64,000 nt of DNA from an uncultured bacterium (GTDB lineage: Bacteria > Cyanobacteriota > Vampirovibrionia > Gastranaerophilales > Gastranaerophilaceae), in the NCBI GenBank assembly GCA_902797965.1, contig CADBUY010000015.1, positions 1 through 64,000 on the forward strand, in the 5' to 3' direction. The notes below the pieces were generated by a model that worked only from the letters and a program-made list of their open reading frames with translations, was not told the DNA's origin and did not search any database. Positions within the stretch are counted from its first letter, which is position 1. Each line of letters opens with the position of its first letter. Both the position numbers and the translations under genes were made by a program. Positions 31,851-55,163 of this stretch are shown here, in pieces.

Positions 31851-32807
31851 TTATTTATTTTGATTATTTCTATATCCAATACCTGCTCGATATCCTGATA
31901 TTGAATACAAAATCGGCAGTGATGGTTCAATCCACTTTAAGCCGGATAACAAAGATACAGTTGCTATGTCATCTGTATGTAAACTTAAATCCAAAAGTTC
32001 AGGAGTTCGTTTTTCTTCTTTTTTACCTTTAAACATTATTGGGTTAATAAATTTATTACCAATATAATTAGCTATTAAGCTGCCTCCTATAACTCCGGTT
32101 GTTAATATCCCTGCTACCATTCCTAAGCAACGTGCGGTTTTGGACTTAATATTCATCTGTTCTAAAATACCCAGCGCGATTCCGGCACCAATGTTGCATA
32201 AAAATATATTTGCCAAGTATTGATATATACCCTCATTAACTTTATTCGGAAGTTTCTCTTTCCAATCATCGCGATACAATTTATCAGCAGCAATCCCTCC
32301 TGCTATACCGCCTGCTACAGGGATAGCTCCATAGATAGAAAGCCATCCTATTTCTTTAAAGATATCTTTTGCTTTGATATAATCAGGAGGCGGAATCAGT
32401 TTATTTCCAATTTCCTTATCTTTCTCGAATAATTTTGCAACTTCTTTAACGCTCAACAAATTTTCTTTTGATTTATTTAATATTTCGCTAATCTCTTTTG
32501 AACCATTTGTATACGAATCTGCAATTACTTTATTTTCAGTTTTTACAGATGCAAGAGATTGTGACATTTTTCTACCGGTGATTACTGATGCTATTTTAGG
32601 AGCTAAAATAGCGGATAAGACAGTCATCCCCAGTATAATACCAAGCTTTCCGCCCTCTTTTTTACGTTGTTCTTTAGGAGTATCACAAAGTTCCTTTGCC
32701 AAAACTACTCCTGAACCACCTGTAAGTATCATGGGAATATGCTTATTAATCTTTGCTACTAAAATCGGCTGGTCTAAAAATTTTCCTATGGCTGAAATAG
32801 GAGTCAT
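31851..32807 (-). CDS. Multi-pass membrane protein coupled to a DtxR-family regulator
   Basis: The 318-aa protein has about six hydrophobic segments, near 25-42 (IPMILTGGSGVVLAKEL), 54-74 (LGIILGMTVLSAILAPKIA), 155-180 (WLSIYGAIPVAGGIAGGIAA), 200-222, 234-255 and possibly 290-308. A charged cytoplasmic stretch of ~65 residues lies at 80-145. Its ATG overlaps the stop of the DtxR-type regulator gene by 4 bp, so it is cotranscribed with it and probably metal-regulated. It has no NRAMP or ZIP signature, so a transporter role is only a guess. Confidence 0.8.
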   Translation of the reverse strand: MTPISAIGKFLDQPILVAKINKHIPMILTGGSGVVLAKELCDTPKEQRKKEGGKLGIILGMTVLSAILAPKIASVITGRKMSQSLASVKTENKVIADSYTNGSKEISEILNKSKENLLSVKEVAKLFEKDKEIGNKLIPPPDYIKAKDIFKEIGWLSIYGAIPVAGGIAGGIAADKLYRDDWKEKLPNKVNEGIYQYLANIFLCNIGAGIALGILEQMNIKSKTARCLGMVAGILTTGVIGGSLIANYIGNKFINPIMFKGKKEEKRTPELLDLSLHTDDIATVSLLSGLKWIEPSLPILYSISGYRAGIGYRNNQNK

Positions 32808-48609: not shown

Positions 48610-48723
48610 ATGAAAACAAGAACATCAGTAAAACCTATGTGCGACAAGTGCAAGGTAATTAAGAGAAAAGGCAGAGTAGCCGTAATTTGCGAAAACCCTA
48701 AACATAAACAAAGACAAGGTTAG
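48610..48723 (+). CDS. rpmJ: 50S ribosomal protein L36
   Basis: A 37-aa protein: [20 protein letters not shown] at the start, then [17 protein letters not shown]. Zinc ligands Cys11, Cys14, Cys27 and His32 are intact (C+ form). AAGGAA lies upstream of the ATG. Its stop codon is the first base pair set of the structured element 48721-48846. Confidence 0.98.
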
Positions 48724-48846
48724 ATTTGCCGTAGGCTGAAGCAAACGTCAGTGAGCGGAATGCCGAAGTCCCGCGGAGTTAAGTGAATGACAATTTTGCG
48801 GAGCAAAATAAAATGAACGGCAACGGAGCGTGGAGGCATAATCTAA
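48721..48846 (+). repeat. Structured intergenic element, copy A
   Basis: About 125 nt between rpmJ and rpsM. Outer stem TAGATTTGCC with GGCATAATCTA (one two-base bulge); central hairpin ATTTTGC-GGA-GCAAAAT (48793-48809). Between them come GTAGGCTGAAG and GAGCGGAATGCCGAAGT blocks shared with copy C. The stop codon of rpmJ lies in the outer stem. The element resembles no family I can name. Confidence 0.8.
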
Positions 48847-48895
48847 TACAAACTCAGTAAAAAAATATAAGTAGTAAAAATAAAGGAAGAAAAAC

Positions 48896-49261: not shown

Positions 49262-49386
49262 AATTTTCCGTAGAGTGACGGCGAACGATAGTGAGCCTAA
49301 CTCGAAGTAGCACGAAGCGAACGAACGGAACTTTTTACGATAGTAAAAATGGAGTGAGTGACAGCGAAGTGTGAAGGAATAATTTT
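49261..49386 (+). repeat. Structured intergenic element, copy B
   Basis: About 125 nt between rpsM and rpsK. Outer stem AAATTTTCC (49261-49269) with GGAATAATTTT (49376-49386); central hairpin TTTTTAC-GATA-GTAAAAA (49332-49349). Both stems differ in sequence from copies A and C but keep pairing. Confidence 0.8.
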
Positions 49387-49833: not shown

Positions 49834-49835
49834 TT

Positions 49836-49960
49836 AAACTTTGCGTAGGCTGAAGTGAGCGTGAGCGAACAGAACGCCGAAGTATCGCGGAACTGAACGA
49901 ATGACAGTTTTGCATCAGCAAAACAAAATGAGTGATAGTGGAGCGTGAAGCAATAGTTTA
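49836..49960 (+). repeat. Structured intergenic element, copy C
   Basis: About 125 nt between rpsK and rpsD. Outer stem AAACTTTGC (49836-49844) with GCAATAGTTT (49950-49959); central hairpin GTTTTGC-ATCA-GCAAAAC (49907-49924). Close in sequence to copy A (GCGTAGGCTGAAG at the start, GGAGCGTG near the end). Confidence 0.8.
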
Positions 49961-49982
49961 AGAATTGACATTAATATTAACC

Positions 49983-52220: not shown

Positions 52221-53051
52221 ATGCGATACGCTCTGGATGTTCAGTATAGGGGCAAAAATTATGCAGGAAGCCAAATTCAGTTTGTAAATGGCAAGCAAAT
52301 TGAAGAACCTACAATACAAGGTGAACTTGAAAGAGCATTAAGCACATTGATACGCGATAGCCGGTGTAAGCCGGAGTCGGGACACGAGAGTGTTCCGAGC
52401 ATGGCGAACACTACGGCAAAGCGAATAAATAAACAAGACCGACAGGTTAAAACAATCTTCTCCGGAAGAACCGATAAAGGTGTTAACGCAATTGGGCAGG
52501 TTATTCATTTTGACACAGATAAAGAAATTGTTGCTTCAAGTTTTATCTATCATATAAATGAAATACTTCCTGCTGACATCTCGGTTGACAATTTGAGAAT
52601 TGTTCCCTCTTCGTTTCATGCTCAAAAGTCTGCGAAGGCGAGATATTACAAATATGAACTTATTAACAGACGTTATAAACAAGCGTTTGACGGTGATATC
52701 TTAAGAGTAAAGTACGAATTGGATGTAGAGCGGATGCAAACCGCTTTGAACTTCTTATTGGGAGAACACGATTTTTCAAGTTTCAAAAGTTCCGGAACGC
52801 TAAACCCGAGCAAAGTTTGTACATTAACCAAAGCTGAAGTTGAAAAACAAGGCGACAGAGTTTATATCCATCTTGTAGGAAATCGTTTTCTTTATAATAT
52901 GGTAAGAACTATAGTCGGTACGCTTCTTGAGATAGAAGGTCACAAACTCCCTGTGGAGTATATGAAAGAAGTCCTTGAAGCACATGACCGCCGCAAGGCT
53001 GGGCAAACAGTAAGTCCCTTTGGACTTACATTAATTAAAGTGGAATACTGA
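52221..53051 (+). CDS. truA: tRNA pseudouridine synthase A with in-frame palindromic insertion
   Basis: TruA makes pseudouridines 38-40 in the tRNA anticodon arm. The catalytic Asp85 sits in SGRTDKGVNAIGQVIHF. Other signatures are ALDVQYRGKNYAGSQIQF, FHAQKSAKARYYKYEL and VGNRFLYNMVRTIVGTLLEI. Between STLI (residue 44) and VKTIFSGRTD (76) there are about 31 extra residues (from RDSRCKPESG to INKQDRQ) that the family lacks. They are encoded by a GC-richer palindromic stretch of 93 bp. The frame is kept, so the enzyme may tolerate the insert in a loop ahead of the active-site strand. The gene starts three bases after rplQ. Confidence 0.95.
   Translation: MRYALDVQYRGKNYAGSQIQFVNGKQIEEPTIQGELERALSTLIRDSRCKPESGHESVPSMANTTAKRINKQDRQVKTIFSGRTDKGVNAIGQVIHFDTDKEIVASSFIYHINEILPADISVDNLRIVPSSFHAQKSAKARYYKYELINRRYKQAFDGDILRVKYELDVERMQTALNFLLGEHDFSSFKSSGTLNPSKVCTLTKAEVEKQGDRVYIHLVGNRFLYNMVRTIVGTLLEIEGHKLPVEYMKEVLEAHDRRKAGQTVSPFGLTLIKVEY
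52360..52417 (+). repeat. Palindromic element inside truA
   Basis: Outer arms GCCG-GTGT (52360-52367) and ACAC-TA-CGGC (52408-52417) pair with a two-base bulge; a central hairpin GGGACAC-GAGA-GTGTTCC (52379-52396) lies inside. The layout (outer stem plus central hairpin) recalls elements A-C, and the whole insert (about 52353-52445) is a multiple of three. Confidence 0.7.
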
Positions 53052-54572: not shown

Positions 54573-54832
54573 GGGTAAATTCAAAGTAGTAGGGTAGACT
54601 TTAGTCTACCTATAAAAACTCTCTTCCTTAACCTACCTCTCAAGAAACGTGACATTTGTCTTGACCTGTTCGCATTAAACGTGTCTATGCAAAAAGACTT
54701 GAATAAAATTATTGTTTTCAAGTCTTTTAGGCTTCGCACTCTGCTCACAGGTCGCTAGTTACCTTTCTTTCGGCAGAGTCCCAAGGGAGGGGGTGTTAAT
54801 TATGATTGAATAAGTTTCAATATACACCCCAC
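54573..54832. other. Gene-free hairpin-rich tract
   Basis: It holds GGTAGACT-TT-AGTCTACC (about 54593-54610), AAAAGACTTGAA...TTCAAGTCTTTT (about 54692-54729, a likely terminator) and ACTCTGC...GCAGAGT (about 54738-54780). No gene is seen. Confidence 0.7.
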
Positions 54833-55163
54833 CTAACCTCCCCTATTGAGGGGAGGTACAAAACTACTACTAACGAGCCTCATAATGACAACATTTGCAC
54901 CCTCTCCTTTTGAGGAGAGGGTTGGGGTGAGGTTTATTCTTTCCCTCCCTAGTTAGGGAGGGTTGGGGAGGGTGTTAATGAGTTTTGATTGTATTAGTTT
55001 TAACAAACACCCCACCTAACCTCCCCTACTGAGGGGAGGTACAAAACTACTACTAACGAGCCTCACAATGACAACTAACCTCCCCTACTGAGGGGAGGTA
55101 CAAAACTACTACTAACGAGCCTCACAATGACAACATTTGCACCCTCTCCTTTTGAGGAGAGGG
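54833..55163. repeat. Array of palindrome-bearing repeats
   Basis: Three copies of a unit beginning ctaacctcccct, with the hairpin CCTCCCC...GGGGAGG and the tail acaaaactactactaacgag, start at 54833, 55016 and 55075; the last two are in tandem at 59 bp. Copies 1 and 3 run on into a second hairpin CCTCTCC-TTTTGA-GGAGAGG. CCCTCCCTA-GT-TAGGGAGGG lies between copies 1 and 2. No coding potential is seen up to gdhA. Confidence 0.85.

Follow-up and report, generated by a model that had tools for sequence, protein, structure and literature searches.

Why does the truA gene of an uncultured member of the Gastranaerophilaceae carry a palindrome in frame within its coding sequence, and does this segment belong to truA or has it come from elsewhere? 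The window, which is the whole stretch of 64,000 nucleotides analysed here, lies on contig C15 of a 2.08 Mb genome assembled in 30 contigs. In it, truA is part of a ribosomal-protein operon with the order rpsM, rpsK, rpsD, rpoA, rplQ, truA, rplM, rpsI, and is thus flanked by rplQ (L17) on one side and rplM (L13) on the other. We will argue that the segment is, with high probability, a truncated copy of a dispersed structured element, which is in frame and would be translated and tolerated by the protein.

The palindrome in truA and the loop it encodes

An initial annotation, made from the DNA letters, had described a nested palindrome kept in frame inside truA. This palindromic insert is real: the arms and the inner hairpin are found as it described them (Table 1), and the reading frame is intact across the insert, with zero stops. 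Folded alone, positions 52354-52432 give an MFE of -36.0 kcal/mol, compared to a mean of -18.3 for shuffled sequences (z -6.4), and 0 of 200 shuffles are as stable.

Table 1. Features of truA and of the palindromic segment, in window positions.
Feature	Positions	Strand	Basis
truA, tRNA pseudouridine(38-40) synthase, 276 aa	52221..53051	+	ORF; TIGR00071 E 3.1e-54; Pfam PF01416
Encoded loop segment RDSRCKPESGHESVPSMANTTAKRINKQ, residues 45-72	52353..52436	+	TruA alignment; disordered in AF2 model
Domain-1-only copy of the dispersed element, sense	52354..52422	+	R2 match 52354-52415 (60.6 bits, E 1.7e-11, own genome); R1 match 52354-52418 (E 1.2e-5); fold; core 52354-52415 plus closing pairs
Outer stem, left arm GCCGGTGT	52360..52367	+	Sequence; MFE structure
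Inner hairpin GGGACAC-GAGA-GTGTTCC	52379..52396	+	Unique in window at <=3 mismatches, 0 expected; MFE structure
Outer stem, right arm ACACTACGGC	52408..52417	+	Sequence; MFE structure
Conserved strand KTIFSGRTDKGV with catalytic Asp (D85), immediately 3' of the insert	52449..52484	+	Invariant columns, 35 TruA sequences

The extent of the insert had to be revised. The extra in-frame loop stands, but the part homologous to the dispersed element runs from 52354 to about 52422 and not over the full 52353-52445. The distance from TLI to GRTDKGV is 141 nt in the window truA and 87 nt in the nearest short-loop congeners, a net gain of 18 residues (54 nt) and not of about 31. As expected for a mobile segment from the initial annotation, the element is absent from close relatives: congeners whose TruA is 88-90% identical show only a short loop in the alignment.

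The window TruA is otherwise normal, as judged from its match to TIGR00071. In an AF2 model built with 35 relatives (pLDDT 85), the insert, which encodes the peptide segment SRCKPESGHESVPSMANTTAK, is placed between helix 32-44 and strand 78-80, with residues 49-71 below a pLDDT of 50. In the model it forms a disordered loop at the protein surface, in agreement with the possibility raised in the initial annotation; by comparison, E. coli TruA is devoid of this loop. According to the model, the insert would sit where the fold and function of TruA tolerate extra residues. Since the insert is in frame and free of stops, its predicted translation product is a flexible loop at the surface, joining helix 1 to the catalytic strand, and the repeat would thereby have become part of the protein.

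A dispersed element structured as sense-strand RNA

Several large truA inserts of the family share the motif (G)CGTAAGCCGGTGTGAGCCGGA...GGGCGAACACTACG. When the longest clean one (L153) was used as BLAST query, each of the 11 genomes probed yielded copies, with E-values down to 1e-24 outside L153 itself. From twelve copies, we defined a full element of about 127 nt with two domains. Domain 1 has an outer stem, GGTGT/ACACTACG, enclosing a long variable hairpin, whereas domain 2 forms a three-way junction that has CCGCC/GGCGG as its closing stem and contains the hairpin GCAATC-TTT-GATTGC. Among the twelve copies, 16 of the 31 base pairs show changes on both sides. The window truA copy corresponds to domain 1 only (about 65-70 nt).

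Two covariance models were used. R1 was made from the twelve defining copies and, because two of these are truA copies, we also built R2 from domain 1 of 16 non-coding copies of other genomes, with none from truA and none from the window's own genome. R2 nevertheless finds four strong matches in the own genome, of which the truA insert is the second best, and R1 finds the same four loci. The other three are the rpsH-rplF and rplF-rplR spacers, identified from translations, and a locus that precedes a Mu-type transposase gene. The next R2 match has an E-value of 1.29; the E-values of both models are rough, the strong matches being separated from the next one by about nine orders of magnitude. 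R2 also matches the truA inserts of L153 (E 2e-13), L045 (1e-9) and, weakly, L004 (0.0016), whereas truA loci with other loops are not matched, except for a weak partial match in L142. Plain BLAST of the truA insert detects zero copies in the own genome. The dispersed copies that the initial annotation had anticipated are therefore borne out by R2 (E 1.7e-11, three other loci), and the truA insert belongs to a dispersed palindromic element family.

These matches bear on the simplest alternative, namely that the segment is an ordinary protein-level loop insertion, produced by slippage or recombination, and that its palindrome is coincidental. The truA loop is indeed variable in length within the family and tolerant of change, but the fold (z -6.4) and the strong R2 match to non-coding copies elsewhere contradict this explanation, whose probability we consider practically negligible.

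The initial annotation had also related the insert to three spacer elements, A-C, at 48722-48850, 49262-49386 and 49834-49972. Both kinds of element bear hairpins and occur in the same operon, and A-C are dispersed in the genus too. This kinship has to be rejected, as A-C form a separate sequence family (77% mean identity, with more copies in the own and congeneric genomes) that is matched by neither R1 nor R2. They fold weakly (z -1.2 to -1.5).

A known Rfam RNA was rejected: at gathering score, neither the window element nor its copies match any family, the hits in L181 and L210 being to the host RNase P RNA. The simple motif AGCCGGTGTNNGCCGG is too strict as a detector (7 sites in 6 of 97 genomes), and a viral origin was dismissed, as IMG/VR does not contain the exact pattern of domain 2.

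The element is restricted to Gastranaerophilaceae in the samples searched. The covariance models match 32 of 60 genomes of the family and, in a sample of the phylum, 34 of 146 genomes, all 34 belonging to Gastranaerophilaceae. Copies are often in tandem or near contig ends, as repeats would be. Their neighbours are mostly translation genes (L3-L4, S11-S4, S8-L6, L6-L18, rpoA-L17, S19-L2, L14-L24, S6-SSB), together with genes for a GGGtGRT protein, GroEL and tuf. The element is also found inside RNase P RNA genes (RF00010), which it enlarges (L181:1300-1827, L210:1216-1640). In genus g10, relatives of the element form an expanded subfamily, with 52 copies in G110 and 23 in G073, most of them about 95 and 147 nt long. 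Three congeners have the element in the same context (L212:1501-1626, L183:1501-1605, L202:1477-1602), L212 being the own-genome copy just upstream of the Mu-type transposase gene. An extra palindrome, CCCCGCAGATGGCGGGG, is nested in the tip of the element hairpin in L212 and L202, and is missing in L183.

Of the 39 copies in co-directional spacers shorter than 350 nt, 38 are in sense orientation, a number that does not count independent events because some of the spacers are orthologous between genomes. The helices of 80 unique copies contain 170 G-U oppositions versus 10 A-C, or about 91 versus 10 without one invariant U-G pair; the alignment was fitted to a model that favours G-U, with columns anchored by conserved sequence. 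A DNA palindrome, or an element acting on either strand, would give similar numbers of the two, and the structure is thus maintained on the sense RNA strand. Selection or the mode of movement probably favours the sense strand of abundant transcripts. One could imagine that the element spreads at the RNA level: abundant transcripts (ribosomal-protein mRNAs, RNase P RNA, tuf, groEL) would receive it in sense orientation, and reverse transcription would bring the new copies back into the genome. On this view, truA would have been hit because of its place within a ribosomal-protein mRNA, and the fact that it codes for a protein would be incidental. We consider such a route rather improbable.

Turnover of the truA loop and insertion into other protein genes

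In order to follow the loop through the family, we surveyed 118 distinct truA sequences of Gastranaerophilaceae. The loop is missing altogether from some basal genera (ACAAAAACAAAAACC), which still keep TruA. In almost all of the rest, a hairpin is encoded by the loop, with stems unrelated in sequence (e.g. GAGTC-AAA-GACTC, CGGGGCAAATAATTGCCCCG, GGCGGGAAACCCGCC), and a few congeners of the window genome have other large inserts at the same position, of 129-204 nt and always in frame. All loop lengths are multiples of three. On a quick TruA tree, where only the label for carrying the element motif was used since the loop-start rule misfired and made the short- and large-loop labels unreliable, this label changes seven times, at least five of the changes being forced by well-supported branches. 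In truA, the element stands in place of a short hairpin rather than in an otherwise empty site, which counts against the reading preferred below.

The small hairpins allow a second explanation, in which a resident functional hairpin of the truA mRNA near codon 45 acts as RNA, e.g. in processing or pausing, or in autoregulation by TruA, an enzyme that works on a tRNA anticodon arm. The large inserts would then be variants of this hairpin, which might sometimes resemble or recruit the dispersed element, and, with no constraint on the protein loop, its sequence would be free to turn over. Several observations are consistent with this: almost every loop-bearing relative has a short hairpin at this position; a stem of at least 5 bp, G-U allowed, is present in 54 of 63 non-redundant loops of 30-62 nt, and a strict Watson-Crick stem in 48 of 86, with about 60 distinct stem sequences; G-U exceeds A-C in the short loops (16 versus 6 cases); and local folding at the loop is stronger than in synonymous-codon shuffles (t about -9.5). 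Moreover, perfect hairpins in the coding sequence of the window as a whole are not in excess (22 vs 17.9 +- 4.5), which rules out a general hairpin excess. Nevertheless, several further truA positions also beat synonymous shuffles, so that folding of the loop alone does not prove a special RNA. In addition, the basal genera keep TruA without loop or hairpin, the stems follow no common sequence, loop or distance rule that we could see, and the match to the dispersed element of the spacers and rnpB is left unexplained. A resident hairpin is thus a possible but somewhat unlikely explanation, and it could coexist with a truncated copy of the dispersed element.

Two hairpin observations were made along the way. 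The truA stretches about 360-520 nt after the GRTD codons outfold synonymous shuffles in most species, and may be further conserved mRNA hairpins. At 31854-32807 of the window, a coding sequence contains a perfect 10-bp hairpin with a 3-nt loop, the longest among the window genes.

One pair of truA genes gives an indication of how the loop changes. Between L153 and L142, from two species of one genus, the difference is a segment of exactly 135 nt flanked by 22-nt direct repeats, GCGTAAGCCGGTGTGAGCCGGA, which suggests that element copies can leave truA by recombination, with a small hairpin remaining. Together with the difference between L212 and L183, this pair suggests that the small truA hairpins may be footprints or targets of such elements.

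TruA is not the only protein concerned. A radical-SAM gene of G075 is longer by about 37 residues (SGSRCEPELTCEEQVKQGEHNDSEVKVCEANFTGAK), read in the frame that the truA copies also use, and its orthologues in the other genomes searched align as two adjoining pieces that flank the insert, which is itself missing. The radical-SAM gene is thus a clean second protein case. A chorismate-binding (PabB-type) fusion gene of G084 is a probable third case, weaker because the copy is short. Outside truA, 2 of the 45 copies examined are coding and in frame. Read in the truA frame, only 6 of the 56 non-coding copies are open, but every coding copy seen is. Since coding copies are open, truA loops keep to multiples of three and the AF2 loop is disordered, translation of the insert as a tolerated, flexible surface loop of TruA seems the most economical reading.

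Our preferred explanation is therefore that of a dispersed element. A truncated, domain-1 copy of the element of about 127 nt would have landed in, or replaced, the small hairpin-forming loop of truA, and the same element would enter, in sense direction, the spacers of ribosomal-protein genes and RNase P RNA, as well as one or more further protein genes. We regard the element as probably selfish or neutral for the most part.

Relation to known palindromic repeats

Palindromes that code for protein have so far been regarded as a peculiarity of the Rickettsiales, mainly Rickettsia, and Wolbachia has equivalents of the Rickettsia palindromic elements (RPEs). RPEs are dispersed palindromic repeats of roughly 100-150 bp, found in frame in unrelated protein genes in a way compatible with function, and nearly half of their copies are inside ORFs (PMC10969869, citing Ogata 2000 and 2002). 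The element described here is likewise dispersed, palindromic and of RPE size in its full form, with covarying stems. It also shows in-frame, stop-free insertion in truA, the radical-SAM gene and probably pabB, and is absent from relatives at the same site. There are differences: our element is from another phylum, most of its copies are in operon spacers, with few coding copies outside truA compared to RPEs, it occurs in RNase P RNA, its structure is that of the sense-strand RNA, and one truA site is reused across the family. The parallel with RPEs drawn in the initial annotation thus holds in kind, as an analogy based on the description of RPEs in a review, and does not extend to demonstrated homology. 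By this analogy, the element is best read as an RPE-like, protein-coding palindromic element.

The literature (open-licence papers) yielded no description of palindromic elements in Gastranaerophilales or Melainabacteria, and this RNA-structured repeat of Gastranaerophilaceae has apparently been undescribed until now. It would be the second case, apparently of independent origin and in a different phylum. With dozens of genera of this gut lineage sequenced, it may offer a test of how such elements enter proteins. The sense-strand RNA structure, the insertion in RNase P RNA and ribosomal-protein operons, the reuse of one protein site across a family and the hairpin kept under complete sequence turnover are features that the sources read do not report for RPEs.

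ERIC, BOX, RUP and Correia elements/MITEs are also short, non-autonomous and dispersed, sometimes in tandem and sometimes fused to ORFs (PMC10969869). The ends of the present element, GCGTAAGCCGG...CACAGGCGG, are not inverted repeats. It differs from MITEs in its two structured domains with RNA covariation. Membership in the REP/RAYT class, with mobilisation by a genome-encoded Y1 transposase, deserves consideration, as the nested palindromes recall BIME/REP designs and the own genome has three Y1_Tnp (PF01797) genes, some also being present in congeners. Nevertheless, copies do not correlate with PF01797 genes: G133, G077 and G073 carry copies and have no PF01797 match, whereas G065 has the gene and no copy. 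The element, at 65-130 nt and strand-specific as RNA, also differs from REPs, which are 20-40 bp long (PMC3733652). RAYT mobilisation was accordingly rejected, and we consider an origin in this class very unlikely.

Other palindromic repeats were encountered in the same genome. One is present in at least five near-identical copies (GGATTGTCGGCAGAGTGCGAAGTTTGTTTGCGTAAGCAAACAACGTAGGCACG...; L248, L249, L250, L251 and L252, on contigs C8, C5, C2 and C12). Another is an intergenic array at 54830-55163 of the window, in which a 92-nt unit, with the palindromes CCTCCCCTACTGAGGGGAGG and CCCTCTCCTTTTGAGGAGAGGG, occurs in three direct copies.
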